From Rhodothermus marinus (lineage in GTDB: Bacteria; Bacteroidota; Rhodothermia; Rhodothermales; Rhodothermaceae): DNA of 64,000 bases. The position numbers and the translations under genes are program-made. The DNA lies in contig NZ_AP019797.1 of NCBI RefSeq assembly GCF_009936275.1, forward strand, positions 797,501 through 861,500, read 5' to 3'. The notes beneath the pieces were generated by a model that saw only the letters and a list, made by a program, of their open reading frames with translations, made no database searches and was not told the DNA's origin. Shown in pieces: positions 12,168 to 32,279 of the stretch (its first letter is position 1; each line of letters opens with the position of its first letter).

Positions 12168-12195
12168 GGGGCCAGGGAGCCTGCTCCCTGGCCCC
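12168..12195. terminator. Strong hairpin between the TonB receptor and PepSY genes
   Basis: GGGGCCAGGGAGC and its exact complement GCTCCCTGGCCCC form a 13-bp stem (12 bp if a 4-base loop is allowed). A T-rich stretch (GTTTTCATTGTTT) follows only on the + strand, where no gene precedes it. On the - strand, the coding direction here, there is no U-tract. In the operon it is therefore more likely an attenuator, or an RNA-stability element that sets the receptor above the PepSY gene, than a full terminator. Confidence 0.5.
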
Positions 12196-12206
12196 GTTTT
12201 CATTGT

Positions 12207-15812: not shown

Positions 15813-15849
15813 GGAGGATTTTCCAATCGTTCGGGTGCGACGCTGATGG

Positions 15850-15876
15850 GAGAATACAATATCTGAACATATTCTC
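15850..15876. promoter_or_regulatory. Candidate operator GAGAATA-N13-TATTCTC
   Basis: Two perfect 7-base inverted arms have centres 20 bases apart, two helical turns, as expected for a dimer binding one face of DNA. An inner inverted repeat (AATAT/ATATT) overlaps it. The site lies 38 bases upstream of the regulator start, where the regulator's own promoter should be (TTGTGA-N18-TATTCT on the - strand is a weak candidate), so autoregulation is likely if this is its site. Confidence 0.5.
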
Positions 15877-15921
15877 ACAAATGTCCATTTGATAATTTCA
15901 TCTTATCTTCAAAAACAGATC

Positions 15922-15950: not shown

Positions 15951-15965
15951 TCTATCGTATCAGAT

Positions 15966-15981
15966 TGATCATAACTGATCA
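15966..15981. promoter_or_regulatory. Candidate operator TGATCA-TAAC-TGATCA
   Basis: Two copies of the 6-base palindrome TGATCA flank a 4-base spacer, just downstream of the predicted susC transcription start. The position suits a repressor roadblock. The binding protein is not known from sequence; the adjacent SorC-type regulator is the first candidate. Confidence 0.4.
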
Positions 15982-16003
15982 AATGATTAAAAATGGAGGC
16001 ACT

Positions 16004-19000
16004 ATGTTGAACGACCGGTACAACGTCTGGCGAAACGGCTGGAAGCGATTCGGCTTCTGGTTGGTGCATGTCTGGCTGCTCACAGCAAGCGCTTCGATAG
16101 CCCAAGCGCAGACGGGAGCGGTTACGGGACGCGTGACAGATGCCGACACGGGCGAGCCGCTTCCCGGTGTGAATGTGGTGGTGGAAGAACTGGCGACCGG
16201 AGCAGCCACCGATGTGGAAGGGCGGTATACGATCTCCGGGCTGCGGCCGGGTACCTACACGCTACGGGCCTCCTTTGTGGGCTATGAGGACCAGACGCAA
16301 GCGGTTGTGGTGCGTGCCGGAGAGACGGTGGAGGTGAATTTTGCCCTGCAGCCCACGACCCTGGGCTTGCAGGAGGTGGTCGTGGTGGGGTATGGCACGC
16401 AGCGGTGGGAGGATGTGACGGGTTCGGTGGCGGCGGTCCGTACGGAAAACCTGGCGTTGATGCCCGTGACGGGGCCCGATCAGGCGCTGGCCGGTCAGGT
16501 GGCCGGGGTACAGGTGCTGCAGGGGAGCGGCATTCCCGGTGGCGGCCCGCAGATTCAGGTGCGTGGCGTCGGTGCGATCGGCGCGGGAAATCAACCGCTT
16601 TTCGTGGTGGACGGCTTCCCGCTTCCCAGTTCGACCAATGAAATTCGCAATCCGCTCAACGACATTCCCCCCGAAGACATCGAATCGATTACAATCCTGA
16701 AGGACGCTTCGGCGGCGGCGATCTACGGCTCCCGGGCGGCCAACGGGGTGGTGATCATTACGACAAAGAGCGGGCGGGGACAGCGGCCTACCGTAACGAT
16801 CACCTCTTCGATCGGCGTGCAGCAGATCCCGCCGGAGCGCAAGCCGGACATCATGAGTGCCCGGGAGTTTGCTCAGTGGATGAAGGAACGTTACGAGGAT
16901 CACGTGCGGATCGACCTGGGCCGGGAGCCAACCCCGGATGATATTCCGGAGCCCTATCGCAATCCGGAAAGCGTGCAGGGCGTGGACTGGTTCGACGCCG
17001 TAACACGGACGGCCCTGATGTCGGACCTGAACGTAAGCGTCAGTGGAGGAAGCCAGCTCGTTACCGCCTACTTTTCGGCCGGTGTGTTGCGGCAGGAAGG
17101 CGTGCTCAGGAACACCGACTTTACGCGGTATTCCCTCCGGGCCAACCTGCGCTTCTATCCCAACGACTGGATCAACCTGGGATTGAACGTGTCGCCGGTA
17201 TTTGCACAGCGCAATCTACCCGTCCAGGGTGGAGGTGGCATCTGGGATGAAACCTTCGCGCGCAATGCAGGGGCCATTTCGATGGGACAGATTCTGGTAA
17301 CCTGCCCGATTGCCAGTCTCGACGATGTGCAGGTGGGATGCCCGGGCACTTTCTCCTGGCCCAATCCTGTTCAGGCGCTGGAAAGCCTGGCGCTTGGCAC
17401 GGAGTCGGCCCGTTTTGTGGGCAGTTCCTTCGTGGAACTCGAACCTGTCTCGGGTTTGCGGCTGAAGTCGCAGCTGAATACGGAAGTGTTCGGGAGCGAG
17501 ACCCAGTTCTATCGGCCTTCGACGATCGGAACAATTAACACGCCACCTCCTCTGGCGCCGCAGGGACGCTACCAGACCAGCAGCTATCTGAACTGGCTGA
17601 ACGAAAATACGGCCACCTGGAATCTGGCGCTCGGGGATCATGCGGTCGAGGTGCTGCTGGGCACCAGCTTTCAGAAACACACGCAGCGGACCGGAAGCTT
17701 TACCGGCGAAGAATATCCAAGCGACGAGGTCAAGACGCTGAACGCGGCCGCGCGCATTACGGGCCAGACGCTGATCGAGGAATGGGGCATGATCTCCTAT
17801 TTCGGACGGGTCAACTATGAGTATCGGAATAAATACTTCTTCACGGCGTCGCTGCGTCGCGACGGTTCGTCCCGGTTTGGCCCGAGGAATCGATGGGGGA
17901 CTTTCCCGGCCATCGCGCTTGGCTGGCGCCTGTCTGAGGAAGGATTCCTGCGGGGGGTTAACTGGATTGACGATCTGAAGCTGCGGTTTTCCTGGGGCGA
18001 AACCGGTAACAACAACATCGGCAACTATGATTACATCAGCCGGGTGACCTCGCAGAATTACGTACTGGGCGGCGGCCTGGCTTCCGGCCGCGTGGTTTCC
18101 TCGCTGGGCAACGATCTGCTGGGATGGGAGACTACGCGGGAGACCAACCTGGGGCTCGATGTGACGCTGCTGAACAATCGCGTCAACCTGAGCGCCGAGG
18201 TTTACCAGAGCTATACGACGGATCTGCTTCTTGACGTAGAAATCCCGCTGTCTTCCGGTTTTACTACGATCAAGGAGAATCGCGGCAAGGTCAGAAACCG
18301 GGGGATCGAGGTGGCGCTGCAGACGACCCCGGTCAGAAGAAGCAATTTCGTCTGGATCTCGAGCTTCAACGTGTCGGCCAACCGAAATGTCGTCCTGGAG
18401 CTGGGCCCCACCGGCGCGCCCATCTACAGTGGTCGCAGCGGCGAGGCAAACCCTACGCATATCACGATGATCGGCAAGCCGGTGGGTATGTTTTTCGGGT
18501 ATGTGTTTGAGGGGCTTTATCGCAACTGGGATGACGTCAACAACAGTCCGCATTTTCCGGGCGCGATCCCGGGGAACGTGAAGTACCGCGACGTAAACGG
18601 AGACGGTACGATCTCGCCGGTGAGCGACTTCGACATCATTGGAAATCCCTACCCGGATCTGGTATTCGGTATCACCAACAGTATCACCTATAAAAACCTG
18701 GATGTGCAGCTTGTGCTTACGGGGCAACTGGGCGGGGAGAAGCTGATGGCCTTCAAGGAGTCGCTGAACAACATCGACGGCGTGTTCAATGTGGAGCGCG
18801 AGATGCTGCAGCAATGGCGCTCGCCCGAAGACCCCGGAAACGGCCGGGTGCCCACGACGGCCGGGACCGCACTTGGCCGGGTCCTGTATCGCGATGTCAA
18901 CTCGCTGTGGGTCAAAGACGCCTCGCACCTGGCCATCAAGAACATCACGGTCCGCTATAACCTGCCCAACCGCTGGTTCCAGTCCTGGATGTCGATCAAC

Positions 19001-19192
19001 CGGGCGTCCGTCTATCTGAGCGCCCAGAACGTGTACTACTTCACGAGCTATCCGGGCAATCCGGAGCAGACCAACTACAACGATACAGGCAACCCCCTGC
19101 GCTATGGCAATCCCAACCTGACGCCCGGACTGGACTATGCGCCCTATCCGTTGCCCCGTACGGTGACGCTGGGCATCGAACTCTCGTTCTGA
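16004..19192 (+). CDS. SusC-family TonB-dependent outer-membrane transporter (RagA type)
   Basis: SusC proteins form the barrel through which glycans captured by SusD enter the periplasm. The 1062-residue protein has a signal peptide ending near IAQAQ, a CarboxypepD_reg-like domain (VTGRVTDADTGEPLPGVNV), the SusC signature region EVVVVGYGTQ, a plug (VRGVGAIGAGNQPLFVVDG, ILKDASAAAIYGSRAANGVV) and a long barrel ending in TVTLGIELSF. I chose ATG 16004 because GGAGG lies 4-8 bases upstream, one of the few clear ribosome sites here. The SusD gene and a rhamnosidase follow, so the substrate is inferred to be a rhamnose-containing oligosaccharide or glycoside. Confidence 0.93.
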   Translation: MLNDRYNVWRNGWKRFGFWLVHVWLLTASASIAQAQTGAVTGRVTDADTGEPLPGVNVVVEELATGAATDVEGRYTISGLRPGTYTLRASFVGYEDQTQAVVVRAGETVEVNFALQPTTLGLQEVVVVGYGTQRWEDVTGSVAAVRTENLALMPVTGPDQALAGQVAGVQVLQGSGIPGGGPQIQVRGVGAIGAGNQPLFVVDGFPLPSSTNEIRNPLNDIPPEDIESITILKDASAAAIYGSRAANGVVIITTKSGRGQRPTVTITSSIGVQQIPPERKPDIMSAREFAQWMKERYEDHVRIDLGREPTPDDIPEPYRNPESVQGVDWFDAVTRTALMSDLNVSVSGGSQLVTAYFSAGVLRQEGVLRNTDFTRYSLRANLRFYPNDWINLGLNVSPVFAQRNLPVQGGGGIWDETFARNAGAISMGQILVTCPIASLDDVQVGCPGTFSWPNPVQALESLALGTESARFVGSSFVELEPVSGLRLKSQLNTEVFGSETQFYRPSTIGTINTPPPLAPQGRYQTSSYLNWLNENTATWNLALGDHAVEVLLGTSFQKHTQRTGSFTGEEYPSDEVKTLNAAARITGQTLIEEWGMISYFGRVNYEYRNKYFFTASLRRDGSSRFGPRNRWGTFPAIALGWRLSEEGFLRGVNWIDDLKLRFSWGETGNNNIGNYDYISRVTSQNYVLGGGLASGRVVSSLGNDLLGWETTRETNLGLDVTLLNNRVNLSAEVYQSYTTDLLLDVEIPLSSGFTTIKENRGKVRNRGIEVALQTTPVRRSNFVWISSFNVSANRNVVLELGPTGAPIYSGRSGEANPTHITMIGKPVGMFFGYVFEGLYRNWDDVNNSPHFPGAIPGNVKYRDVNGDGTISPVSDFDIIGNPYPDLVFGITNSITYKNLDVQLVLTGQLGGEKLMAFKESLNNIDGVFNVEREMLQQWRSPEDPGNGRVPTTAGTALGRVLYRDVNSLWVKDASHLAIKNITVRYNLPNRWFQSWMSINRASVYLSAQNVYYFTSYPGNPEQTNYNDTGNPLRYGNPNLTPGLDYAPYPLPRTVTLGIELSF

Positions 19193-19222
19193 ATGGCAGG
19201 ATTTCAAACAGCGAGGCAAGCC

Positions 19223-20734
19223 ATGAAACGATATACACTCATTCTGATTGCCGGCCTGCTGGGTGCTTCGTGCGACAGCCTGATCGACGTGCAGCCGCAA
19301 TCGGACATTTCGACGGAGACCTTCTTCCGCACGCCTGCGCAGATTGATCAGGCGATCCTAGGCGCCTATGGCTATTTGCAGACGCTTTATGCAGCAAATG
19401 GCCCTGGTGCCTTTACTGGTGCCTATAGTCTGCTCGAAATGCGTTCCGATAACACAACGTATCAGTTTAATGTGGACAATCGGGGTGCGCTTCATGCCGA
19501 GCAGATTGACGAATTTAGAGAACAATCTGAAAATATAGAAATACAAGCTTTCTGGCAGACTTCATATCAGGGAATTTATCAGACCAATGTGATACTGGAT
19601 CGAATTGAGTCGGTGGAATATGGCAATAATACTGCTTTGAAAGATCAGCATATTGGCGAAGCAAAATTTCTGCGTGCTTTTAACTATTTCAATCTGGTCC
19701 GGCTGTTCGGCGGCGTGCCGCTGAAACTGCACGAAATCAAAACGCCATCGGAAGCGTATGCCGAAGGGCGGGCTTCGGTGGACGAGGTCTATGCACAGAT
19801 TCTGTCCGATGTGCAGGATGCGGTGCAGAAGTTGCCTTGGACCTATCCGGCGGAACAGGCCGGCCGGGCCACGAAAGGAGCGGCGCTGATGCTGCTGGCC
19901 GAAGTGCATATGACCCGCCAGAACTTCAGCGAGGCGCGTGCCGCTCTGGAGCAGATCGTAAGTGCGGGGATCTACGAACTGCTTCCGGATTACGCGGAGG
20001 TGTTCAACCCGGCCAACAAAAACCACCGGGAGTCCATCTTTGAGATCCAGTACAGCAACAACTACGAGGGGGAAGAGGCGGACTGGATCTTTCAGTTTGC
20101 GCCGTTCAACTCGGGCTGTGCGCTGATGCAGGGGCCGTGCCAGGGGGCGCGCGTCTTTGCCTGGAATATCCCGACGCGCGACATGCTCGACGCCTATGAG
20201 CCCGGTGATCTGCGCAAGGGTGTGTCCATCGGCTGGTACGAAGATCCCTCCAACGTGCAGTACGACGTCGCCATTGGCGATTCCATTCCCTACGTCAAGA
20301 AGTTTGCCTGGCCCTTCAACGCACTGAACCGGACGAACGAAAACTGGCCGGTTTACCGCTACGCGGAGACGCTGCTGCTTCTGGCCGAAGCGCTGAACGA
20401 AGAAGGACGTACGGCCGAGGCGGAGCCCTATCTGAACGCGGTGCGGGCACGGGCCGGGCTGCCGCCGCTCACGGGGCTGTCCCAGGAGGAATTTCGGCAG
20501 GCCGTCTGGCACGAGCAGCGGGTGGAACTGGCCTTCGAGAACAAGCGCTGGTTCCAGCTGCTCCGGACCGGCCAGGCGCTGGACGTGATGCGTGCCCACG
20601 GAGAGCGGATGCGTCAGATCTCGGAACGCCTGGCCCGCGAAAATGCCTACCAGATCGAGCCGTACCGACTGCTCTACCCCATTCCGCTGCGCGAAGTTAT
20701 CTTGAATAACCTGGAACAGAACCCCGGCTATTGA
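19223..20734 (+). CDS. SusD/RagB-family glycan-binding lipoprotein
   Basis: The 503-residue surface lipoprotein partners with the preceding SusC. It has a lipobox ending in GASC (Cys17), followed by DSLIDVQPQSDIST, the typical SusD start, TPR-like helices (FLRAFNYFNLVRLFGGVPL, YAETLLLLAEALNEEG) and the C-terminal RagB/SusD region (VRARAGLPPL, ELAFENKRWFQLLRTG, RLLYPIPLREVILNNLEQNPGY). The ATG at 19223 gives the lipobox signal peptide; an in-frame ATG at 19193 is less likely. The stretch 19500-19700 is visibly richer in A and T than its neighbours. Confidence 0.93.
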   Translation: MKRYTLILIAGLLGASCDSLIDVQPQSDISTETFFRTPAQIDQAILGAYGYLQTLYAANGPGAFTGAYSLLEMRSDNTTYQFNVDNRGALHAEQIDEFREQSENIEIQAFWQTSYQGIYQTNVILDRIESVEYGNNTALKDQHIGEAKFLRAFNYFNLVRLFGGVPLKLHEIKTPSEAYAEGRASVDEVYAQILSDVQDAVQKLPWTYPAEQAGRATKGAALMLLAEVHMTRQNFSEARAALEQIVSAGIYELLPDYAEVFNPANKNHRESIFEIQYSNNYEGEEADWIFQFAPFNSGCALMQGPCQGARVFAWNIPTRDMLDAYEPGDLRKGVSIGWYEDPSNVQYDVAIGDSIPYVKKFAWPFNALNRTNENWPVYRYAETLLLLAEALNEEGRTAEAEPYLNAVRARAGLPPLTGLSQEEFRQAVWHEQRVELAFENKRWFQLLRTGQALDVMRAHGERMRQISERLARENAYQIEPYRLLYPIPLREVILNNLEQNPGY

Positions 20735-20755: not shown

Positions 20756-23584
20756 ATGCGAATCTGGCTTTGCTTAATGGTGCTCCTCTTGCTGGGAGGA
20801 GCGAAAGAGGGGGCTGCGCAGTCGAACCAGGCGTTGCAGGTTACTTCGCTCCGCACGGAATACCATGTCAATCCGATCGGGATCGAGGTCCGGCAGCCGC
20901 GGTTGAGCTGGCAATTACAGAGCGACCGGCGTGATGTACGCCAGGTGGCCTATCAGATTCAGGTGGCCACCAGCCGCGAAGCGCTCGCGCGCGGACGCGA
21001 GCTCGTATGGGACAGCGGCCGCGTCGAGTCGGACCAGTCGGTCTTCGTCCCCTATGGCGGACCGGCGCTGCAGAGCCGCCAGCGCTACTACTGGCGCGTG
21101 CGCGTCTGGGACAACCACGGCCGCAGCTCGGCCTGGAGCGAGCCGGCCTTCTGGGAAATGGGGCTGCTGTCGCCTGAGGAATGGCAGGCGCAGTGGATCA
21201 CGTACGACTGGGAAGAGGATACCTCGCAGCCTCAACCCGCACCGATGCTGCGCCGGACGTTCCGCGTCGATGGCCGCGTGCGCCGCGCCCGCCTTTACAT
21301 TACCAGCCTGGGACTCTACGAGGCGCACCTGAACGGTCGCCGCGTGGGCGACCAGCTCTTCACGCCGGGCTGGACGAGCTACCACCATCGCCTCCAGTAC
21401 CAGACCTACGACGTAACGGACCTGCTGCGTCCGGGCGAAAATGCCCTGGGCGTGATTCTGGGCGATGGGTGGTACCGGGGCTATCTGGGATGGGGTGGGC
21501 GCCGCAACGTCTATGGCGACCGACTGGCACTCCTGGCCCAGCTCGAAATCACCTACGAGGACGGCCGCACGCAGGTCGTGACCTCGGACCCCGACTGGAA
21601 GGCGACGACCGGGCCCATCCGCATGTCGGACATCTACATGGGCGAGATCTACGACGCCCGCCTTGAAAAAGAAGGCTGGACCGAGCCGGGCTATGACGAC
21701 AGCGACTGGCGGGGCGTGCGTGTACTGGAGCACCCGAAAGACATCCTGATCGCGCCCATCGGTCCGCCCGTGCGTCGCATTCAGGAGATCCGTCCGGTCG
21801 CGATCCTGTACACGCCCGAAGGCGATACGGTGGTGGATATGGGCCAGAACATGGTGGGCTGGGTGCGACTGCGCGTACGGGGGCCGGCCGGCACGGTCGT
21901 GACGCTCCGCCACGCCGAAGTGCTGGACAAACACGGCAATTTCTACACGGAAAACCTCCGCCGTGCCCGACAGACGGACCAGTACATCCTTAAAGGGCAC
22001 GGCGAGGAAGTTTTCGAGCCCCATTTCACCTTCCACGGCTTCCGTTACGTGGCCGTCAGCGGCTATCCGGGGGAGCTGACACCTGAGGCCATTACCGGCA
22101 TCGTGATCCACTCGGCCTTTGAGCCGACCGGCACATGGATCAGCTCGGACTCGCTGCTGAACCGGCTTCAGCTCAACATCCAGTGGGGCATGAAGGGCAA
22201 CTTCCTGGACGTGCCCACCGACTGTCCGCAGCGCGACGAGCGGCTGGGATGGACGGGCGACGCCCAGGTGTTTGCCCGGACGGCCATGTTCAACGGGCTG
22301 GTCGGCGGCTTTTTTACCAAGTGGCTGGGTGATGTAGCGGCCGATCAGAGTGCGGAAGGAGCTGTACCCCATGTCGTGCCCAACGTCCTGCCTTCCTTTG
22401 CGGGACGGTTTCCGGGCGGTGCGACCGGCTGGGCCGATGCCGCCGTGGTCATTCCCTGGACGATGTACCAGGTGTATGGCGACCGGCGTATTCTGGAGGT
22501 GCAGTATCCCAGCATGAAGGCCTGGGTCGAGTACATGCGCCGGGAAGCAGGGGAGGATCTGATCTGGGACACGGGCTTCCACTTTGGCGACTGGCTGGCA
22601 TTCGTGCCCGAAGAGAATGTGCGGCGGGCCTATCCGGGGGCGACGACCGGGCGCGATTTTCTGGCAACCGCCTACTTTGCCTACAGCACGCGGCTGCTGG
22701 CGCAGGCGGCCGAAGTAATCGGGAAAACCGACGAGGCCCGGCACTACCGGCAGTTGTACGAGGCCATCCGGGAAGCCTTCAACCGCGAATTCGTCACACC
22801 CAACGGGCGCGTTGCGCAGGCCACTCAGACGGCCTACACGCTGGCCATTCAGTTCGATCTGTTGCCCGAGCACCTGCGGGCCGAAGCCGGGCGCCGGCTG
22901 GCCGAAGACGTGCGCGCTCATAACATGCACCTGACCACGGGCTTTCTGGGCACCCCGCAGCTACTGCACGCGCTCAGCAACACCGGCCAGCTCGACGTGG
23001 CCTACACGCTGCTGCGGCAGACCACCTACCCCTCGTGGCTCTACCAGGTGAAAATGGGCGCCACCACGATGTGGGAGCGCTGGGACAGCATCAAGCCCGA
23101 CAGCACCTTCCAGGACCCCAGCATGAATTCCTTCAACCACTATGCTTATGGCTCGGTGGGCGACTGGATGTATCGCGTGGTGGCGGGAATCGATACGGAA
23201 ACGCCGGGCTACCAGCGGCTGCGCATTGCGCCGCAGCCGGGAGGTGGGCTGAAGTGGGTGCAGGCGCGCTACCATTCGCTCTACGGCGAGGTGGCCTCAA
23301 GCTGGGAGCTGGTCGATCCGCAGACGTTCGTGCTGGAAGTCACCATCCCGCCGAACACCACCGCCACCGTGCGCCTGCCGGGTGCGCAGCTGGCGTCGGT
23401 GCAGGAAGGCCGGCAGCCGGTGCAATCGGCGGCCGGGGTGCATCGGGCTTATCAGGACGGCGCCGACGTGGTGATCGAAGTCGGCTCGGGCACCTACCGG
23501 TTCACCTATCCGCCCTCGGCGGAGCTGGTCCGGCGCATTCAGACGCAGCCCGAGGTAGGACAGCCTGTGACGGTGAGCTTTTAG
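20756..23584 (+). CDS. Alpha-L-rhamnosidase, glycoside hydrolase family 78
   Basis: GH78 enzymes release terminal L-rhamnose from plant glycosides, pectin side chains and other polysaccharides by an inverting mechanism. The 942-residue protein has a signal peptide (to about AAQS), an N-terminal Fn3-like rhamnosidase domain (LRTEYHVNPIGIEVRQPRLSW), beta-sandwich domains including FTPGWTSYHHRLQYQTYDVTD, and an (alpha/alpha)6 catalytic barrel with the family hallmark DCPQRDERLGWTGD at 489-502 (Asp494 and Glu495 are the conserved acids) and TMWERWDS further on. It ends with a C-terminal beta domain. Secreted to periplasm or surface, it feeds rhamnose to the genes downstream. Confidence 0.94.
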   Translation: MRIWLCLMVLLLLGGAKEGAAQSNQALQVTSLRTEYHVNPIGIEVRQPRLSWQLQSDRRDVRQVAYQIQVATSREALARGRELVWDSGRVESDQSVFVPYGGPALQSRQRYYWRVRVWDNHGRSSAWSEPAFWEMGLLSPEEWQAQWITYDWEEDTSQPQPAPMLRRTFRVDGRVRRARLYITSLGLYEAHLNGRRVGDQLFTPGWTSYHHRLQYQTYDVTDLLRPGENALGVILGDGWYRGYLGWGGRRNVYGDRLALLAQLEITYEDGRTQVVTSDPDWKATTGPIRMSDIYMGEIYDARLEKEGWTEPGYDDSDWRGVRVLEHPKDILIAPIGPPVRRIQEIRPVAILYTPEGDTVVDMGQNMVGWVRLRVRGPAGTVVTLRHAEVLDKHGNFYTENLRRARQTDQYILKGHGEEVFEPHFTFHGFRYVAVSGYPGELTPEAITGIVIHSAFEPTGTWISSDSLLNRLQLNIQWGMKGNFLDVPTDCPQRDERLGWTGDAQVFARTAMFNGLVGGFFTKWLGDVAADQSAEGAVPHVVPNVLPSFAGRFPGGATGWADAAVVIPWTMYQVYGDRRILEVQYPSMKAWVEYMRREAGEDLIWDTGFHFGDWLAFVPEENVRRAYPGATTGRDFLATAYFAYSTRLLAQAAEVIGKTDEARHYRQLYEAIREAFNREFVTPNGRVAQATQTAYTLAIQFDLLPEHLRAEAGRRLAEDVRAHNMHLTTGFLGTPQLLHALSNTGQLDVAYTLLRQTTYPSWLYQVKMGATTMWERWDSIKPDSTFQDPSMNSFNHYAYGSVGDWMYRVVAGIDTETPGYQRLRIAPQPGGGLKWVQARYHSLYGEVASSWELVDPQTFVLEVTIPPNTTATVRLPGAQLASVQEGRQPVQSAAGVHRAYQDGADVVIEVGSGTYRFTYPPSAELVRRIQTQPEVGQPVTVSF

Positions 23585-23607: not shown

Positions 23608-25041
23608 ATGGCACAATCTTCCCGCATGCAGGCCCTGGCGGCGCGGCTCGACGCGCTCAACGAATTCGATCGCGAGCCGGTAACGCCCGATCGGCTTCAG
23701 GGGCTAGGCAGTTTTCTGGGGTTTTACGCCGGCGAGCACGTGGCGGGCACGGAGTTCGTCATCGGGCCGCTGTTCGTCGCGCACGGCGTGGCGGCGGCCG
23801 ATCTGATCGGCGGATTGCTGCTGGGTAACCTGCTGGCCGTGCTCTCCTGGGCGTTCATCTGTGCGCCGATTGCCGTACGCACGCGCCTGAACCTCTACTG
23901 GCAGCTCCGCAAGATCACGGGGCCGTACCTGCTGGTGCTCTACAATCTTGTCAATGCCCTGATGTTCTGCTTCCTGGCCGGCTCCATGATCTCGGTGGCA
24001 GCCACGGCCGTCGGCATGCCCTTCGACATGAAAATGCCCGGGCTCGACGATCTGTATCCGAACAGTGTGGGCTGGGTGCTGACTGTGTTTTTCGTCGGGG
24101 CGGTGGTGACGGTCTTCGCCATCTTGGGCTTCGAAAAGATCGCCCAGCTGGGTAAGGTGGCGGCCCCGTGGATGTTTCTGGTGTTTGTGGCCTGCGCGCT
24201 GGCTGTCCTGCCGCAGCTGGGCGTGCATTCGTGGAGCGACTTCTGGCGCGTGGCCCAGGAGAAGATCTGGACCGGCGAGCCCATGCCGGGCCGCGTGAAG
24301 TTCACCTTCTGGCATGTGGTGTTTTTCTCCTGGTTTACGAACATGGCCATGCATATCGGCATGGCGGATCTGACCGTGTTGCGCTACGCGCGCAAATGGA
24401 CCTACGGCTTTGCCAGCGCGGCCGGCATGTACCTGGGGCACTTCATCGCCTGGATCGCCTCGGGCATCCTGGTGGCGGCCGCGCTGGAGCAGGGCGGCGA
24501 CGTGGCCCCCGGCCCCATCGCCTACCTGGGGGCCGGCGTGGCCGGGCTGATCGCCGTCGTGATCGCCGGCTGGACGACGGCCAACCCCACCATCTATCGG
24601 GCCGGACTGGCCATCCAGACAATCACGCCCAACTGGAAGCGCTGGAAGGTTACGCTGGCCGTGGGCGCCGTGACCACCATCGCTGCGCTGTTCCCAGCCA
24701 TTATGATGCGGCTGCTCGACTTCGTGGCGCTCTACGGGCTGCTTCTGATGCCTATGGGTGCGGTGATCTTTGCCGATTTCTGGCTGCTGCCGCGCCTGGG
24801 ATTGCGCTCCTACTATGCCGAGTGGCGCAGACTGCTTTTCAGCTGGCCCGCCGCCGTGGCCTGGGGTGGGACGCTGCTCGTGTGCGGATTGCTGAACCTG
24901 CTGCTGGGCTGGCAGATCTTCTTCCTCGGCTTGCCCGGATGGTTCGTGGCCGTGGCGCTCTACGTGGGGCTCAGCTACCTGCAGCAGCGCCGCGCGGCGC
25001 CGGTGACGACACCCGAAGTTACCGCAAACGTGACGAAATAA
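23608..25041 (+). CDS. NCS1-family permease, candidate L-rhamnose transporter
   Basis: The 477-residue protein has about 12 hydrophobic segments and an N-terminal cytoplasmic tail. Its fold class looks like nucleobase:cation symporter-1 (purine/cytosine permease-like): GLGSFLGFYAGEHVAGTEF near the start, FEKIAQLGKVAAPWMFL in the middle, and TTANPTIYRAGLAIQ towards the end. Known NCS1 members move nucleobases, allantoin or hydantoins. Here it lies inside a rhamnose operon that has no other inner-membrane sugar carrier (no RhaT, ABC or MFS gene), so rhamnose is the inferred substrate. The next gene, a small membrane protein, starts 4 bases after the stop. Confidence 0.75.
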   Translation: MAQSSRMQALAARLDALNEFDREPVTPDRLQGLGSFLGFYAGEHVAGTEFVIGPLFVAHGVAAADLIGGLLLGNLLAVLSWAFICAPIAVRTRLNLYWQLRKITGPYLLVLYNLVNALMFCFLAGSMISVAATAVGMPFDMKMPGLDDLYPNSVGWVLTVFFVGAVVTVFAILGFEKIAQLGKVAAPWMFLVFVACALAVLPQLGVHSWSDFWRVAQEKIWTGEPMPGRVKFTFWHVVFFSWFTNMAMHIGMADLTVLRYARKWTYGFASAAGMYLGHFIAWIASGILVAAALEQGGDVAPGPIAYLGAGVAGLIAVVIAGWTTANPTIYRAGLAIQTITPNWKRWKVTLAVGAVTTIAALFPAIMMRLLDFVALYGLLLMPMGAVIFADFWLLPRLGLRSYYAEWRRLLFSWPAAVAWGGTLLVCGLLNLLLGWQIFFLGLPGWFVAVALYVGLSYLQQRRAAPVTTPEVTANVTK

Positions 25042-25045: not shown

Positions 25046-25228
25046 ATGTTACGCCGTCTGTTGCAGGGATTGTCTGGCCTGGGGCTGGTCCTGACGGTCG
25101 CTCCCTCGTGGCTGGTGTTTGCCGGCCGGATCACCTGGGAGATGCATGCCGATCTGATGCTGGTGGGAACGGCCCTCTGGTTTGCGACGGCACCGTTCTG
25201 GATGCGATCGAAAGCGGACATGCTCTGA
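25046..25228 (+). CDS. Small membrane protein, 60 residues, between permease and rhaI
   Basis: The product has two predicted transmembrane helices (LQGLSGLGLVLTVAPSWLVF and MLVGTALWFATAPFW) joined by a short loop with GRITWEMHAD, and a charged C-terminal tail. It lies 4 bases after the permease and 8 bases before rhaI, so it is surely part of the operon. Small two-helix proteins in this position behind sugar permeases occur in Bacteroidetes genomes, from memory, but I know no assigned function. A role as accessory subunit of the permease is inference. Confidence 0.7.
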   Translation: MLRRLLQGLSGLGLVLTVAPSWLVFAGRITWEMHADLMLVGTALWFATAPFWMRSKADML

Positions 25229-25236: not shown

Positions 25237-26523
25237 ATGATCGACGCGGAAATTCTGGAACGACACAACCGACAGCGCGAGGCCGCGCACCGGCGTGATC
25301 TGGAGTACCTGGCCGAGCGGCTGGCGCGAAGCGGGATCGTGCTGGAAGCGGTGCTCGACGAACTGGCCACTTTCGAGGTGGCGCTGCCCACCTGGGCCAT
25401 GGCGGCCGGCGGTACACGCTTCGGGCGCTTTCCGATACCGGGCGAACCGCGCACCATCTTCGAAAAGCTCGAAGATGCTGCCGTCATTCATCAGCTCACG
25501 CGGGCCACGCCGCGCGTGTCGCCGCATTTCCCCTGGGACGTGGTAGATGACTGGGCGGCGCTGCGGGCCCATGCCGAGGCACTGGGGCTGGGCTTCGATG
25601 CGGTCAACTCGAACACGTTTCAGGATCAACCCGACCAGCCATATTCCTACAAACTGGGCTCGCTCAGTCACGCCGATCCGGCCGTCCGGCGCCAGGCCAT
25701 CGCGCACAACCTGCAGGTCGTCGCCTGGGGACAGGAGCTGGGTTCAACGGCACTGACCGTCTGGCTGGCCGACGGAAGCAACTATCCGGGCCAGATGCAC
25801 CTGCGCCGCAGCTTCGAGCGCGTGCAGGAAAGCCTGGCCGAAATCTACGCGGCGCTCCCCGAAGGCTGGCGGATGCTCATCGAATACAAGCCCTACGAAC
25901 CGGCTTTCTACGCCACGGTCATTCAGGACTGGGGCTCGGCCCTGCTGCTGGCTCAGGCGCTGGGTGAGCGTGCGCAATGTCTGGTCGATCTGGGCCATCA
26001 CCTGCCCAACACCAACATCGAGCTCATCGTGGCACGGCTCATCGGGGCCGGCAAGCTGGGAGGCTTTCATTTCAACGATGCCAAGTATGGCGACGACGAT
26101 CTGACGGCCGGTTCGATCAAGCCCTACCAGCTTTTCCTGGTATTCAACGAACTGGTCGATGCAGCGCGCGAGGGCGTGCCGGGCTTTCGGCCGGCCTACA
26201 TGATCGATCAGAGCCACAACGTGAAGGATCCGATCGAGGCGCTACTGCAGACGGTCGATCACCTGCAGCGGGCCTATGCGCGGGCGCTGCTGGTCGATCG
26301 CGAGGCACTCAGCCACTACCAGGAGACGGGCGACGTGCTCATGGCCGAGCGAACGCTACGGGCGGCGTTCGAGACCGACGTCGGGCCGCTGGTGGCCGAA
26401 GTGCGTCGCCGTCGCGGTGGTGCCCTGGACCCCGTACTGGCTTTCCGGGAGTCCGGTTACCGCCAACAGAAAGCCCGCGAACGAAGCACTCCGGCAACCG
26501 CACAGGCACCCGGCTATGCGTGA
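25237..26523 (+). CDS. rhaI: L-rhamnose isomerase, Pseudomonas stutzeri type
   Basis: This enzyme converts L-rhamnose to L-rhamnulose. The 428-residue length and sequence (LARSGIVLEAVLDELATFEVALPTWAMA, then FGRFPIPGEPRTIFEKLEDA, HFPWD, MLIEYKPYEPAFY, LVDLGHHLPNTNIE and GGFHFNDAKYGDDDL) are those of the RhaI group, not of the shorter-signature E. coli RhaA group. The Glu, His and Asp residues in the last motifs are the expected metal ligands of this xylose-isomerase-like barrel. I chose ATG 25237, which gives the natural length. Its 3' end overlaps rhaB by 8 bases. Confidence 0.9.
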   Translation: MIDAEILERHNRQREAAHRRDLEYLAERLARSGIVLEAVLDELATFEVALPTWAMAAGGTRFGRFPIPGEPRTIFEKLEDAAVIHQLTRATPRVSPHFPWDVVDDWAALRAHAEALGLGFDAVNSNTFQDQPDQPYSYKLGSLSHADPAVRRQAIAHNLQVVAWGQELGSTALTVWLADGSNYPGQMHLRRSFERVQESLAEIYAALPEGWRMLIEYKPYEPAFYATVIQDWGSALLLAQALGERAQCLVDLGHHLPNTNIELIVARLIGAGKLGGFHFNDAKYGDDDLTAGSIKPYQLFLVFNELVDAAREGVPGFRPAYMIDQSHNVKDPIEALLQTVDHLQRAYARALLVDREALSHYQETGDVLMAERTLRAAFETDVGPLVAEVRRRRGGALDPVLAFRESGYRQQKARERSTPATAQAPGYA

Positions 26524-27955
26524 GCGGCGAGCAGGCTACCTGGCCTTCGATCTGGGCGCCTCCAGCGGGCGTGCCATGCTGGGCTGGCTGGAAGGGCCGG
26601 TCCTGCACATGGCCGAAGTGCATCGCTTCGAGACGCCTTTGATCGAACGGGACGGCCATCTCTTCTGGGACGTGGAGGCGCTGGAACAGGAGATCTGGAC
26701 CGGCCTGCAGCAGGCGCTGGAGCAGATGCCAGCGCTGCGTGCGGTGTCGGTGGATTCCTGGGCGGTCGATTACGTGCTGCTGGACCGGGAGGGACGTCCG
26801 CTCCGGCCGCCTTACAGCTACCGGGACACGCGGACGCGCCCGATGATGGCGCGGGCCTTTGCCCGGGTCTCTCCGACTGAACTCTACGCCCGGACAGGTA
26901 TCCAGCTGATTCCTATCAACACGCTCTACCAGCTGCTGGCCGACCTGGAGGAGGACCCGGCGATGCTTCGCCGGGCTGAACGGCTACTGCTGATCGCCGA
27001 CTACTTCAACCAACGGCTGGGCGGGCAACCCGTGGTCGAAGTCTCGATGGCCAGCACCACCCAGCTCATGAACGTGCATACCCGCCAGTGGGACGCGGAG
27101 CTGCTGCGCGCGTTCGGGCTCGATTTTCCGTGCTGGCCCGACATTGTGCCTTCAGGCCAGGTGATCGGCCAGGTGCGGGGGCATCCATCCGTGGCCGTGA
27201 TCGCTTCCTGCTCGCACGACACGGCCTGCGCGGTGGCGGCCGTGCCCGCTCGTCCGGGCACCCGCTGGGCCTACATCAGCCTCGGCACCTGGGCACTGCT
27301 GGGCGTGGAGCGTACCACGCCGATCCTGACCGACGCCGCCCGGGAGGCCGGCTTCACGCACGAGGCAGGACTTGACGGTACGATTCGCTTTTTGAAAAAC
27401 CTGACGGGCCTCTGGGTGCTGCAGGAGTGCCTTCGAGCATGGCGCCAGGAAGGACCGGTCTCGTGGGAAACGCTCGAAGCCGAAGCGCGTGCGGCGCCCG
27501 CCGATCGGTGCTACCTCGACCTGGACGATCCCTACTTCTTCGAACCGGGGCAGATGCCCGAGCGCATTGTGGCCTATTGCCGGCGGCACGGCCTTCCGGT
27601 ACCGGAAGGCCGGGGCCAGATGGTGCGGGCCATCCTGGAAAGCCTGGCCCAGAACTTCCGGCGGGCGCTGCGCCAGCTGGAGGCGCTCATCGAAGCGCCG
27701 GTCGATACGCTGCACATCGTGGGGGGCGGCGCCCGTAACCGGCTGCTCTGTCAGCTCACGGCCGACACCTGCGAGGTGCGTGTGGTGGCCGGTCCAGCCG
27801 AGGCGACGGCCATGGGCAACCTGCTCATTCAGGCCCGCACGCTGGGCGACCTGCCCGAAGGCTACACACTGCGTGACGTTGTGGCCCGCTCCGAGACCTG
27901 CTGGATCTACGAACCTCATCAGGAACCCATTCCGCAAACCTTAACTGAAGGATAG
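26516..27955 (+). CDS. rhaB: L-rhamnulokinase (FGGY family)
   Basis: RhaB phosphorylates L-rhamnulose to rhamnulose-1-phosphate. The 479-residue protein has the two actin-like ATPase domains of FGGY kinases: YLAFDLGASSGRAMLGWL at the start, VDSWAVDYVLLD, RDTRT, CSHDTACAVAAVP, ISLGTWALLGVE and the C-terminal LHIVGGGARNRLLCQLTAD with AEATAMGN. These are rhamnulokinase-type versions of the motifs. The ATG at 26516 overlaps the end of rhaI. A TAG stop abuts the ATG of the next gene directly, so the three enzymes are translationally linked. Confidence 0.94.
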   Translation: MRERRAGYLAFDLGASSGRAMLGWLEGPVLHMAEVHRFETPLIERDGHLFWDVEALEQEIWTGLQQALEQMPALRAVSVDSWAVDYVLLDREGRPLRPPYSYRDTRTRPMMARAFARVSPTELYARTGIQLIPINTLYQLLADLEEDPAMLRRAERLLLIADYFNQRLGGQPVVEVSMASTTQLMNVHTRQWDAELLRAFGLDFPCWPDIVPSGQVIGQVRGHPSVAVIASCSHDTACAVAAVPARPGTRWAYISLGTWALLGVERTTPILTDAAREAGFTHEAGLDGTIRFLKNLTGLWVLQECLRAWRQEGPVSWETLEAEARAAPADRCYLDLDDPYFFEPGQMPERIVAYCRRHGLPVPEGRGQMVRAILESLAQNFRRALRQLEALIEAPVDTLHIVGGGARNRLLCQLTADTCEVRVVAGPAEATAMGNLLIQARTLGDLPEGYTLRDVVARSETCWIYEPHQEPIPQTLTEG

Positions 27956-30148
27956 ATGGAAACACAGATGACGTTTACGTTCGTGGAAAACCGCTGGGAC
28001 GATGCGGTCGCGGATCAACTGGATCCGCTGGGACGCCTGGTGTACCGTTCCAACCTGCTGGGCAGCGACTGGCGCATCACGAACACCGGCGGTGGCAATA
28101 CGTCCTCCAAGCTGATCGAGCGTGATCCGATCACCGGCGAGCCCGTCGAGGTGCTCTGGGTCAAAGGCTCCGGAGGTGATCTGCGCACGGCTACGCGGAA
28201 AAACTTCGCCTCGCTTTACCAGCAGAAACTATTGGCGCTGCAGGAAATCTACGCCCGTATGGAACCGCGTGGCCCCAAGACGCCAGCCGAAGATGCGATG
28301 GTCGAACTGTTTCGCCACTGCATCTTCAACCTGAACCCCTGCGCGCCCAGCATCGACACGCCGCTGCATAGTTTTATCCCTTATCGGCACGTCGACCATA
28401 CCCATCCGGTCCCCTGCATTGCCATCGCGACCGCCAAAGACGGACCGGACCTGACACGGGAGATCTACGGTGACGAGGTGCTCTGGGTGGACTGGCAGCG
28501 GCCCGGCTTCGAGCTGGGGCTCAAACTGCAGGAACTCTGCCGTCGGCATCCTTCGGCCCGCGGGGCGATTCTGGGAGGGCACGGCCTCATCAACTGGGCC
28601 GACGACGACAAGGAGTGCTACCTGCTCACGCTGCGATTGATCGACCAGGCTGCGCAATATCTGGCTCGCTTCGATCGGGGTATCGAAACGTTCGGCGGAC
28701 GGAAATATCCGGCGCTTTCCGAAGCCGAACGGGAAGCCGTGCTGGTTGAAATCCTGCCCTGGCTGCGTGGCCAGCTCAGCCAGGAGAAGCGGGTGATCGC
28801 TACCGTCGAGGCGAGCGAAAACGTCCTAGATTTTGTCAACTCGAACAGAGCGCCGGAACTGGCCGAACTGGGAACGTCGTGTCCGGACCACTTCCTGCGC
28901 ACGAAGATCAAGCCGCTTTACGTGGACTGGAATCCGACGGCTGAGTCGCTGGAGGTGCTCAAAGAGCGCCTGCAGGAAGGGCTGGAGCGGTACCGCGCCG
29001 ACTATCGGGCCTACTACGAAGCGCATCGCAAGCCCGACTCGCCGCCCATGCGCGGCGCCGACCCGACGGTGGTGCTCATTCCCGGCGTCGGCATGATCGC
29101 CTGGGGCAAGACCAAAAGCGAAAGCCGCGTGACGGCCGAGTTTTACAAGAGCGCCATCGAGGTGATGCGCGGGGCCGAGTCGGTCAGCACCTACACGGCG
29201 TTGCCGCGCCAGGAGGCGTTCGACATCGAGTACTGGGCACTGGAGGAGGCCAAGCTGCGGCGTATGCCGCCCGAGAAGGAACTGGCTCGGCAGATTGTCG
29301 TCGTCGTGGGAGCGGGTAGTGGCATCGGCCGTCGCGTGGCCGAACGGCTGGTACAGGAAGGCGCGGTAGTGGCTGCACTGGACCTGAACGGTCCGGCCGC
29401 CCGTGAAACGGCCGATCGCATCCTGGAGCAGGTGGGCATGGGCATCGGGGTAGCGGGTACGGGCATTTCGGCCTGCGGCGACGCCATCGGCCTGGAAGTG
29501 GACATGACCGATCGCGAGGCCGTGCGCCGGGCGCTTCGTTCGGTGATTCTGGCCTATGGTGGACTGGACCATCTGGTGATCACCGCCGGACTCTACGTGC
29601 CGCCGCCGCCCACCGGCGAGATCCCCGATGCCCGCTGGGACGACACCTTCCGGGTGAATGTGACAGGGCCGTTCATCGTAGCGGACGAAGCTCGGCGCAT
29701 CTGGGAAGCCCAGGGCCTCCCGGGCTCGCTGGTGATTACCACCAGCGTCAACGCCGTAGTGCCCAAGGTGGGCAGTATGGCGTACGATACGAGCAAAGCG
29801 GCCGCCAACCACCTCGTGCGCGAGCTGGCCCTCGCACTGGCACCGCTCGTCCGGGTCAACGGCGTGGCGCCTGCGACGGTCGTCGAAGGCAGCGCCATGT
29901 TTCCGCGCGAGCGGGTCATCGCTTCCCTCCTGCGCTATGGCATCCCCTTCGACGAAAATGAAGACACCGAAACGCTTCGCCAGCGACTGGCCGACTTCTA
30001 CGCGCGGCGCAACCTGCTCAAAGCGCCGATCACGCTGGACGATCAGGCCGAAGCGATCTTCCTGCTGGTGAGCGGACGCCGCCTGAGCAAAACCACCGGC
30101 CAGGTGCTCCACGTGGACGGCGGCATTCCGGAAGGCTTTCTGCGATGA
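27956..30148 (+). CDS. rhaEW: Bifunctional rhamnulose-1-phosphate aldolase / L-lactaldehyde dehydrogenase
   Basis: The 730-residue fusion cleaves rhamnulose-1-phosphate into DHAP and L-lactaldehyde, then oxidises lactaldehyde to L-lactate. The N-terminal class II aldolase/adducin domain (1-about 420) has GGGNTSSKL, His148/His150 in DHTHP and GGHGLINW, the zinc-binding signature. The C-terminal short-chain dehydrogenase (about 445-730) has GAGSGIG (452-458) and the active-site pair Tyr610/Lys614 in YDTSKAAA, and ends with GQVLHVDGG. This RhaE-RhaW fusion is known from comparative studies of bacterial rhamnose pathways. It starts directly after rhaB and overlaps lutA by 4 bases (ATGA). Confidence 0.92.
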   Translation: METQMTFTFVENRWDDAVADQLDPLGRLVYRSNLLGSDWRITNTGGGNTSSKLIERDPITGEPVEVLWVKGSGGDLRTATRKNFASLYQQKLLALQEIYARMEPRGPKTPAEDAMVELFRHCIFNLNPCAPSIDTPLHSFIPYRHVDHTHPVPCIAIATAKDGPDLTREIYGDEVLWVDWQRPGFELGLKLQELCRRHPSARGAILGGHGLINWADDDKECYLLTLRLIDQAAQYLARFDRGIETFGGRKYPALSEAEREAVLVEILPWLRGQLSQEKRVIATVEASENVLDFVNSNRAPELAELGTSCPDHFLRTKIKPLYVDWNPTAESLEVLKERLQEGLERYRADYRAYYEAHRKPDSPPMRGADPTVVLIPGVGMIAWGKTKSESRVTAEFYKSAIEVMRGAESVSTYTALPRQEAFDIEYWALEEAKLRRMPPEKELARQIVVVVGAGSGIGRRVAERLVQEGAVVAALDLNGPAARETADRILEQVGMGIGVAGTGISACGDAIGLEVDMTDREAVRRALRSVILAYGGLDHLVITAGLYVPPPPTGEIPDARWDDTFRVNVTGPFIVADEARRIWEAQGLPGSLVITTSVNAVVPKVGSMAYDTSKAAANHLVRELALALAPLVRVNGVAPATVVEGSAMFPRERVIASLLRYGIPFDENEDTETLRQRLADFYARRNLLKAPITLDDQAEAIFLLVSGRRLSKTTGQVLHVDGGIPEGFLR

Positions 30149-30879
30149 CCGTCGCGCTTTTTGTGCCCTGCTATATCGATCAGTTTTACCCGCGCGTGGC
30201 GCGGGCGGCGCTGACGCTGCTGGAGCGGCTGGGCTGTCGCGTGGAGGTCCCGCTGGATCAGACCTGCTGCGGGCAGCCGCTGGCCAACGCGGGTTTTGCC
30301 CGGGAGGCGCGGCCTGTCATGGCGCATTTCGTGCGAGTGTTCGCGCCGTACGATTACATCGTGGCGCCTTCGGGTAGTTGCGTCTTTCACGTGCGACATC
30401 ATCTGGAAGCGGACGACGCCGAAGCCGTCCGGCACGTGCAGCAGCGCACCTACGAGCTGTGCCAGTTTCTGCGCGAAGTGCTGCAGGTCGAGCGGATTGA
30501 AGCGCGCTTCCCGCACCGTGTGGCAGTACACGACAGCTGCCACGGCCTGCGCGGCCTGGGACTGGGCCGTCCGTCCGAGCGTATGGTCCCCGCCTACAGC
30601 GTGGTGCGTGACCTGCTGCGTCAGGTCGATGGACTGGAGCTGGTCGAGCCGTCGCGCCCCGACGAGTGCTGCGGTTTCGGTGGAACGTTCGCCGTCGAAG
30701 AAGAAGCGATGTCGGTGCGCATGGGGCAGGATCGGCTCGACGACTTCCTGCAGGCCGGCGCCGAAGTGGTCGTCAGTACCGATATGTCCTGCCTGATGCA
30801 TCTGGAGGGGCTGGCACGGCGGCAGCAGCTGCCCCTGCGCTTTCTGCACGTGGCCGAGATCCTTGCCGGAGCGGACTGA
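30145..30879 (+). CDS. lutA: L-lactate utilisation protein LutA (Fe-S oxidoreductase, YkgE family)
   Basis: LutA, LutB and LutC form the iron-sulfur L-lactate dehydrogenase that yields pyruvate. The 244-residue protein has the two cysteine-rich CCG domains: FVPCYIDQFYP with LDQTCCGQPLANAGF in the first half, and HDSCHGLRGLG with DECCGFGGTFAVEE in the second. Length is normal. It overlaps rhaEW by 4 bases and lutB by 1 base, so lactate made from rhamnose is oxidised by co-translated enzymes. Confidence 0.93.
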   Translation: MTVALFVPCYIDQFYPRVARAALTLLERLGCRVEVPLDQTCCGQPLANAGFAREARPVMAHFVRVFAPYDYIVAPSGSCVFHVRHHLEADDAEAVRHVQQRTYELCQFLREVLQVERIEARFPHRVAVHDSCHGLRGLGLGRPSERMVPAYSVVRDLLRQVDGLELVEPSRPDECCGFGGTFAVEEEAMSVRMGQDRLDDFLQAGAEVVVSTDMSCLMHLEGLARRQQLPLRFLHVAEILAGAD

Positions 30880-32279
30880 TGGAGGGGTTCATCGAACTGC
30901 CTGTGGTCGATCATGCCCGGCTGGCCGCCCGTTTTGTGGCCGATGCCGAACGTGTGCAGTGGCACGATGCGCTGCTCTGGCAGGTGCGGCTGAAGCGCGA
31001 TCGGGCCGCTGCCGAGGTGCCCGAATGGGAGGAATTGCGGCGACTGGCCTCGGAGATCAAGGCGCACGTGCTCACGTATCTGGATCGCTACCTGGAGCAG
31101 TTCGAGGCACAGGCGCGCGCCTGCGGCATCCAGGTGCACTGGGCGCGCGATGCCGCCGCCCACAACCGTATCGTGCATGAGCTGCTGGCCACCCGCCATG
31201 TGCGGCGCGTGGTCAAAAGCAAATCGATGCTGACCGAAGAGTGCGGTCTGAACCCCTACCTGGAGGCGCGTGGCATCGAGGTGGTCGATACGGATCTGGG
31301 CGAGCGCATCATGCAATTGCTCCGGCAGCCGCCCAGCCACATCGTTACCCCGGCCATCCATCTGCGTCGCGAAGAGGTGGCCCGGCTCTTTCATGAAAAG
31401 CTCGGCGTGCCCGAAAACCTGACGCCCGACGAACTGGTGGCCGTCGCCCGCCGGGTGCTTCGCCAGAAGTTTCTGGAAGCCGAGGCGGCCATCACGGGCG
31501 TCAACTTTGCCGTGGCCGAAACCGGAACGCTCGTCGTCTGCACGAACGAGGGCAACGCCGATCTGGGCATGCACCTGGCACCGGTGCACATTGCCGCAAT
31601 GGGGATCGAAAAACTCATCCCGCGTCTCGTCGATCTGGGTGTGTTTCTGCGGTTGCTGGCGCGCAGCGCTACCGGCCAGCCCCTCACGGTGTACACGACG
31701 CACATCGGGCGGCCGCGTCCCGGCCAGGAAGTGCATGTGGTGCTGGTCGATAACGGCCGAAGCCGTCGGCTGGGGCTGCCACGCTTCTGGCCGGCGCTGA
31801 AGTGCATTCGGTGTGGGGCCTGTATGAACACGTGCCCGGTCTATCGCCGGAGCGGTGGTTACAGCTACGGAGCCACGGTGCCCGGACCGATCGGCGCCAT
31901 TCTGATGCCCGGCTACGACGCGGCCCGCTATCGGACGCTGCCCTATGCCTCGTCGCTGTGCGGCTCGTGTCGCGAAGTGTGTCCCGTGCAGATCGACATC
32001 GACGAGCAGCTTTATGCCTGGCGGCAGGAGGTCGGTCCGCGCTATGTCCCCCGCCTGAAGCGCCTCGCCATGCGGCTGGCCGCCCGGGTGCTGGCTTCGC
32101 CGGGGCGCTACCGGAGGGCCGGACGCCTGCTGCGCTGGAGCCTGCGGCGCCTGCCGCGCCGGATCCTCTACGGCCCCTGGAACGGCTGGGGACGTGCCCG
32201 CGAGCTACCCTCGGCCCCGGCGGAAAGTTTTCTGGAATGGTATCGGAAAACCAGAGCCTCGGCCACGGCGCAACGATAA
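30879..32279 (+). CDS. lutB: L-lactate utilisation protein LutB (ferredoxin-type Fe-S subunit)
   Basis: The 466-residue protein has an N-terminal LUD domain (VKSKSMLTEECGLN, AETGTLVVCTNEGNADLG) and a C-terminal double [4Fe-4S] ferredoxin segment (CIRCGACMNTCPVY and CGSCREVCPVQIDI), then a basic amphipathic tail. This is the LutB/YkgF arrangement. The ATG at 30879 overlaps the lutA stop (TGATG). lutC does not follow directly: 434 bases of repeat-rich DNA intervene. Confidence 0.93.
   Translation: MEGFIELPVVDHARLAARFVADAERVQWHDALLWQVRLKRDRAAAEVPEWEELRRLASEIKAHVLTYLDRYLEQFEAQARACGIQVHWARDAAAHNRIVHELLATRHVRRVVKSKSMLTEECGLNPYLEARGIEVVDTDLGERIMQLLRQPPSHIVTPAIHLRREEVARLFHEKLGVPENLTPDELVAVARRVLRQKFLEAEAAITGVNFAVAETGTLVVCTNEGNADLGMHLAPVHIAAMGIEKLIPRLVDLGVFLRLLARSATGQPLTVYTTHIGRPRPGQEVHVVLVDNGRSRRLGLPRFWPALKCIRCGACMNTCPVYRRSGGYSYGATVPGPIGAILMPGYDAARYRTLPYASSLCGSCREVCPVQIDIDEQLYAWRQEVGPRYVPRLKRLAMRLAARVLASPGRYRRAGRLLRWSLRRLPRRILYGPWNGWGRARELPSAPAESFLEWYRKTRASATAQR

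Follow-up and report, generated by a model that had tools for sequence, protein, structure and literature searches.

The rhamnose operon of Rhodothermus marinus raises the question of how L-rhamnose crosses the inner membrane when the sole large carrier found among the operon ORFs scanned resembles the nucleobase:cation symporters (NCS1). All coordinates given below are those of the window, the whole stretch of 64,000 nucleotides that was analysed. A sequence-only reading of the window had proposed that the locus covers L-rhamnose use from outer-membrane capture onwards, and this was borne out, as SusC/SusD capture proteins, a GH78 rhamnosidase, RhaI, a kinase, RhaEW and LutA-like and LutB-like proteins were all identified. 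The genes are tightly packed in the order SusC, SusD, GH78, permease, small ORF, RhaI, FGGY kinase, RhaEW, LutA-like and LutB-like, all on the plus strand, with a SorC-type regulator transcribed divergently.

The regulator (14859..15878, minus strand) is a SorC/DeoR-type sugar-binding protein (PF04198 Sugar-bind, E 3e-70; NCBIfam DeoR, 251.8 of 420 bits). Between it and SusC lies a palindrome, TTGATCA-N4-TGATCAA (15965..15982), which is a candidate operator. The mechanical ORF of the SusC-type TonB-dependent receptor begins at 15965, inside this palindrome, and by inspection we placed the start at the ATG at 16004, which is preceded by GGAGG; the gene so defined (16004..19192) scores 833 bits with TIGR04056 against a cut-off of 368.25. 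It is followed by a SusD-type lipoprotein (19193..20734; PF07980 and PF14322) and a GH78 alpha-L-rhamnosidase (20756..23584; PF17389, E 2e-124) that carries a signal peptide by inspection of its N-terminus. The permease ORF had been read correctly: it runs from ATG to stop exactly at 23608..25041 and encodes 477 aa. Linkage, fold and conserved residues lead us to propose this NCS1-like protein as the large subunit of an L-rhamnose symporter. Four nucleotides after its stop starts an ORF for a 60-aa two-helix membrane protein (25046..25228), the proposed small subunit, which separates the permease from the L-rhamnose isomerase RhaI (25237..26523; the likely start is 25237 and not the GTG at 25108). 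RhaI and the rhamnulokinase-like FGGY kinase (26516..27955, with 26516 the likely start) both score under their cut-offs (TIGR02629, 610.1 of 646.75 bits; TIGR02627, 456.4 of 527.95 bits), and RhaEW, the rhamnulose-1-phosphate aldolase/short-chain dehydrogenase (27956..30148), scores above its own (NF006189, 1103 bits against 634). The last two genes encode a LutA-like protein with cysteine-rich domains (30145..30879; PF02754, every NCBIfam match under cut-off) and a LutB-like L-lactate oxidation iron-sulfur protein (30879..32279; PF02589; TIGR00273, 411.8 of 444.8 bits, under cut-off).

Several other features were noticed around these genes. A 194-aa ORF (32714..33298, plus strand) stands behind LutB, where LutC would be expected, and it had no NCBIfam match at 1e-6 that would make it LutC. 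ARAGORN calls a tRNA-Gln at 30190..30275 (plus strand) inside the LutA-like gene, and this call is probably false. The operon is flanked, on the minus strand, by genes for a siderophore-type TonB receptor (12207..14561) and a PepSY-TM protein (10915..12492). In a Bacteroidota rhamnose operon at locus L158, an FMN-dependent L-lactate dehydrogenase-like gene (L158:8589..9743, minus strand) is situated between the kinase and the permease, where R. marinus has its Lut-like genes.

The R. marinus genome is a single contig of 3,430,829 bases in which the permease is single-copy. That RhaT is missing was confirmed, as no match was found in the genome even at E 10, and the Pfam NCS1 family (PF02133) also had no match anywhere in it. 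PF00083 gave eight weak stretches of 19-40 bits; five ORFs behind them were scanned, where one was found to be an EmrB efflux pump above cut-off, one was just under and the rest were below every cut-off, and the ORF at L108 is closest to the D-galactonate type, below cut-off. PF13407 was observed at nine places, of which those at L112, L114 and L116 are LacI-type regulators. In a whole-genome search the candidate operator is the only site at one mismatch or fewer; the same palindrome, with its centre changed, occurs at a locus of the same genus (L096). If the palindrome is the operator, no other carrier is under the same regulation. As far as the search extended, then, neither RhaT nor a second copy of the candidate operator points to a co-regulated rhamnose carrier elsewhere in the genome.

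The resemblance to NCS1, on which the original assignment of the permease was based, is clear in the predicted structure and weak in the sequence. No Pfam family matches the permease at E 10, with NCS1, SSS and RhaT (PF06379) all unmatched, and PF02133 at this threshold also misses four relatives. The best NCBIfam match is CytX (TIGR02358) at 35.8 bits, far under the cut-off of 309.85. A sequence search of the PDB found no match with either the single permease sequence or a 59-row profile, and the fold assignment therefore rests on prediction. The AlphaFold2 model (pLDDT 90.7) shows a LeuT fold of 12 helices, in which TM1 and TM6 are broken (helices 33-44/49-58 and 234-243/246-249). Its closest solved structures are NCS1 proteins, namely CodB (Z 30.7) and Mhp1 (29.1, 27.6 and 26.0), which come ahead of the other LeuT-fold families, where SMCT1 (23.0) is the best and vSGLT reaches 21.9. 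When a profile of 112 relatives was aligned to CodB of E. coli, the alignment covered 393 columns (E 2.7e-5, with a probability of 74.5%). AllW, which is likewise an NCS1 protein, was not matched by this profile, as its E of 0.034 does not stand out from that of the control YbbY (0.074).

Several residues of functional interest in CodB were observed to be highly conserved in the permease family. The Na2 side-chain ligands Thr278 and Thr279 correspond to T323 (112/112 relatives) and T324 (111/112), and a Na2 site in the permease is probable. Arg216 and Tyr285 correspond to R259 and Y330 in all 112 relatives; the CodB study singles out this Arg-Tyr pair and describes Mhp1 as being without it (PMC9379551). 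Asn280, which lies near the cytosine in CodB, is replaced by alanine in 110 of the 112. The characteristic TM3 tryptophan of NCS1 (Trp108 in CodB) is missing, with no tryptophan at positions 115-136 in the 112 sequences, where the alignment of TM3 to CodB is unsure. Alignment A1 leaves out eight of the 66 scan loci (L006, L036, L046, L061, L063, L064, L066 and L067) that are partial or contain a stop. Because the Pfam NCS1 model does not match and the TM3 tryptophan is missing, we place the permease beside NCS1, as a sister lineage that has a CodB-like frame. These features also bear on the possibility, which its best family match and its best folds could suggest, of a nucleobase or HMP permease of the usual kind whose place in the operon is accidental. 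The permease belongs to no nucleobase family of Pfam or NCBIfam, in agreement with the earlier proposal of a rhamnose carrier; the very low CytX score, the unmatched PF02133, the absent tryptophan and a rhamnose-gene linkage conserved in many phyla make a chance nucleobase permease scarcely credible.

This linkage was observed over a wide range of bacteria. A scan of genome contigs located the permease at 66 loci, most of them in MAGs, spread over some ten named phyla or candidate phyla. Among 67 loci (these and the R. marinus locus), tblastn found RhaI at 28, GH78 at 22, RhaEW at 21 and RhaB at 13, and two unrelated genes of the window taken as controls, GH32 and ClpX, at none. Linkage with rhaI, which had been suggested as a check, was examined in 392 genomes of the host phylum that are at least 90% complete. 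The permease is present in 40 of these, rhaI in 74 and RhaT in 51, and 38 of the 40 permease genomes contain rhaI (Fisher p 1e-29, a value that is too good as the genomes are related). Permease and rhaI lie within 10 kb of each other on the same strand in 33 of the 38 genomes; they are 2.5 Mb apart in G175, which counts against the linkage.

Permease and RhaT were found to replace each other. The 74 rhaI genomes comprise 32 with the permease only, 34 with RhaT only, six with both and two with neither (p 1.3e-12, which kinship makes too good). Among the 34 RhaT-only genomes, 31 have RhaT no more than 10 kb from rhaI; none of the six genomes with both does, and in three of these six RhaT and rhaI are on different contigs. 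Outside the host class, 48 rhaI genomes divide into nine with the permease only, 34 with RhaT only, four with both and one with neither (p 3.9e-6, inflated by kinship). When rhaI is counted by genus (n=46), 20 genera have the permease, 19 RhaT, four both and two neither, and one is mixed. Both types occur within the single family f29, and the five sampled genomes of the host genus include two with the permease and rhaI and three with neither. In 39 further genomes, reached through permease loci, RhaI was found in 20, RhaA in 16, either isomerase in 35 and neither in four; not all of the 20 RhaI matches are strong, one being partial at 138 bits, and the 35/39 is a raw count among genomes with the permease. 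In L012, RhaA ends 24 bp before the permease. This neighbourhood and the presence of RhaA in 16 of the 39 genomes indicate that the association of the permease with rhamnose does not depend on the type of isomerase. Counting against the linkage, as do the four genomes with neither isomerase, 18 of the 81 loci outside the mannitol-type branch described below have no rhamnose-linked gene, GH78, sulfatase or GH92 in the stretch examined; this neighbour count skips locus L090. We also noticed that four Bryobacterales loci (L038, L039, L042 and L043) share a conserved cluster in which a Gfo/Idh/MocA oxidoreductase accompanies diverged forms of the permease and the small gene, with no rhamnose gene in the stretch examined.

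The neighbours of the permease help to decide between possible substrates. GH78 is the commonest neighbour besides RhaI and, in the stretch examined, is the sole rhamnose-linked gene for 14 of the 112 permeases, which would suit a carrier of rhamnose-containing oligosaccharides instead of free rhamnose; a 2013 survey mentions carriers for oligosaccharides where a genome has no carrier for rhamnose (PMC3870299). The signal peptide of GH78 leads us to expect hydrolysis before the inner membrane is reached, and RhaT, which the permease replaces, is a monosaccharide carrier; oligosaccharide cargo thus appears quite improbable. Export or import of an end product of the pathway, such as L-lactate or L-lactaldehyde, could be imagined from an operon that makes L-lactate and has Lut-like genes, and from SMCT1, by its name a lactate carrier, as the best structural match outside NCS1. 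The permease is however also present where Lut genes are absent from the stretch examined (LutA occurs at 11 of the 67 loci by tblastn) and where RhaA replaces RhaI, and the exclusion pattern is with RhaT, so that we regard an end-product carrier as very improbable. L-rhamnose itself, as the sequence-only reading had supposed, is supported by the linkage to rhamnose genes together with the NCS1 proteins as best-fitting folds.

The earlier claim that the permease is the only inner-membrane carrier of the operon held for large proteins among the ORFs scanned; it overlooked the 60-aa protein, which probably accompanies the permease. Short two-helix ORFs of the same pattern, ending approximately in WF-x-TAPFWM, follow the permease in many loci. 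The small protein has no Pfam or NCBIfam family: PF13937 (DUF4212) does not match the R. marinus protein and reaches one of five sequences at E 0.058, under cut-off, and no DUF4212-type match was found in NCBIfam. A profile built from 44 small ORFs detected 81 ORFs at E <0.01 in the loci examined, of which 37 were not in the profile, several of these being the same places fetched again. Relatives were observed at 63 of the 81 non-mannitol permease loci. In 24 cases the small ORF starts 4 nt inside the end of the permease gene, before the end of its stop codon (for L035, this count uses a different ORF from its profile match), an overlap that is typical of coupled translation. Values of pN/pS between 0.08 and 0.38 in 12 pairs indicate purifying selection on the small protein. 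It was not found in two rhaI loci without the permease (L098 and L099), and in G175 it accompanies the permease at a distance from rhaI.

The 18 loci where the small protein was not found consist of three contig ends, two with a diverged ORF, two with a weakly matching C-terminal extension and 11 that form one clade (SH-aLRT 99). The weakly matching extensions are those of planctomycete loci L055 and L060, which gave E 9e-5 and 0.007 when the set held two sequences and 23% with hhalign, and we do not claim them as a small domain. The 11-locus clade has no small protein within the stretch examined, which indicates that some permeases either do without the protein or are not linked to it.

Further evidence for the pairing comes from a sister branch of the permease. 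Its members (e.g. L091, L094 and L095) are 39-40% identical to the permease and have about 100 extra residues, and the fused relative of about 570 aa was found directly before a mannitol-type dehydrogenase in all 31 loci examined. These loci (L091, L094, L095 and L120-L148) belong to Bacteroidota family f29, except L091, which belongs to f32; the 31-locus set leaves out the further copies at G755:C19, G737 and G518:C95. The branch forms one clade (SH-aLRT 100) in a tree that took nine of the 31 mannitol types. Alignment by hhalign shows the C-terminal extension of these permeases to be homologous to the small protein (95.8%, E 7e-9, where 19 null windows gave E 0.02 or worse), and the model of the extension has two helices of high confidence, 504-529 and 534-567. 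Fusion in one branch is a classic sign that the separate proteins of another act together, and we therefore read the fusion as indicating that the separate permease and small protein do so. The R. marinus carrier thus probably works as a pair with its 60-aa protein. The model of the mannitol type fits CodB better (Z 38.0; Mhp1 32.4, next 24.9) than does that of the R. marinus permease.

The sister-branch dehydrogenase belongs to the mannitol dehydrogenase family in Pfam; in NCBIfam the closest models to that of L095 are fructuronate reductase and D-arabinitol dehydrogenase, and no match exceeds its cut-off. Mannitol is the likeliest substrate of this enzyme, and a PfkB kinase at L094 helps this assignment (PfkB occurs in one of 33 stretches, 30 of which are too short to show it). 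The fused relative is accordingly a candidate polyol carrier. A second, small branch (L081 and L149-L151) adjoins sulfatases, GH92 or SusCD and is without rhamnose genes. With such neighbours, and with very high residue conservation between the branches, the permease might be a broader carbohydrate carrier of deoxyhexoses, hexoses and polyols, for which rhamnose would be one of several substrates, or the substrate might shift from branch to branch. The neighbours in R. marinus and in most linked loci are nevertheless rhamnose-specific, and RhaT is replaced one for one. Few fully conserved positions differ between the rhamnose and mannitol types, and two of them, A124 to S and T328 to N, separate the types in a manner that suggests specialisation and that makes the substrate choice testable. 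We consider broad specificity of the R. marinus permease unlikely.

In our preferred reading, the permease supplies the operon's transport step at the inner membrane and functions as a cation-coupled L-rhamnose symporter together with its small partner. We infer the substrate, the coupling to Na+ and the pairing from the observations above, and consider this reading quite likely. SusC and SusD would bring rhamnose-bearing glycans across the outer membrane, and the exported GH78 enzyme would free L-rhamnose in the periplasm. The LeuT-fold symporter on its NCS1-like frame would then carry L-rhamnose inward, driven by a cation that is probably Na+, and RhaI, the kinase, RhaEW and the Lut-like proteins would convert it to dihydroxyacetone phosphate, L-lactate and pyruvate. 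Beyond R. marinus, we lean towards a separate family beside NCS1, in which a CodB-like LeuT-fold subunit is combined with a two-helix subunit of 50-70 residues, encoded by two genes in the rhamnose branch or fused in the polyol/mannitol branch, and which would take the place of RhaT in some ten named phyla or candidate phyla. If the small gene does encode a true subunit, anyone expressing the carrier would need to know of it, as the permease without it would be inactive.

LeuT-fold SSS proteins such as vSGLT carry galactose. Contrary to what had been suggested for rhamnose, sugar transport is therefore not new for the LeuT fold and would be new only for the NCS1-like group. GapMind reportedly lists Echvi_1617 of Echinicola as an L-rhamnose transporter; if that protein falls in the permease family, rhamnose carriage would already have genetic support. 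Listings of open-licence PMC papers showed no NCS1-like rhamnose or mannitol carrier. The 2013 survey of rhamnose catabolism describes RhaT, ABC and MFS carrier types and leaves some genomes without a carrier (PMC3870299); the permease family, if our reading is true, would be a fourth type of L-rhamnose carrier. A 2026 paper states that N-heterocyclic compounds are the substrates of every other bacterial NCS1 protein so far characterised, that whether NCS1 takes up anything else had been unknown, and that metformin can now be added (PMC13390362). A natural sugar branch, if true, would widen the substrate group of NCS1 much further than metformin does.

Compared with known systems, the permease shares its proposed role in L-rhamnose uptake with RhaT (DMT superfamily), RhaY (MFS) and RhaFGHJ (ABC), as these are described in the survey (PMC3870299), but differs from all three in fold and replaces RhaT. 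MetT, the metformin carrier of 2026, is an NCS1 protein that has a substrate other than an N-heterocycle, as proposed for the permease, and came to light through its linkage to a catabolic gene (PMC13390362); its substrate is a guanidine drug and no sugar.

The SSS symporters vSGLT and human SGLT offer a parallel in that they are LeuT-fold sugar symporters, and the solved human SGLTs have a small partner, MAP17, according to the titles of the structure entries. SSS symporters also have small two-helix subunits (DUF4212) as partners of the LeuT-fold protein. The permease differs from them in having no SSS Pfam match and in a vSGLT score about 9 Z units below that of CodB (21.9 vs 30.7), and its small proteins differ from the DUF4212 subunits in reaching PF13937 no closer than the single sub-threshold match given above.

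The closest systems are found among the NCS1 proteins. The hydantoin symporter Mhp1 agrees in fold (Z 29.1, with an rmsd of 2.9 across 406 residues) at 15% identity and, according to the CodB study, has no counterpart of the Arg-Tyr pair of CodB and the permease (PMC9379551). CodB, the Na+/cytosine symporter (7qoa), is 16% identical to the permease, which differs from it in the missing PF02133 match and TM3 tryptophan, in the replacement of Asn280 by alanine, in having rhamnose genes and not codA beside it and in having a small partner protein. The two nevertheless have in common the Na2-site threonines, the Arg-Tyr pair and the 12-helix LeuT fold, in which the predicted model superposes on CodB with Z 30.7 and an rmsd of 3.6 across 392 residues.
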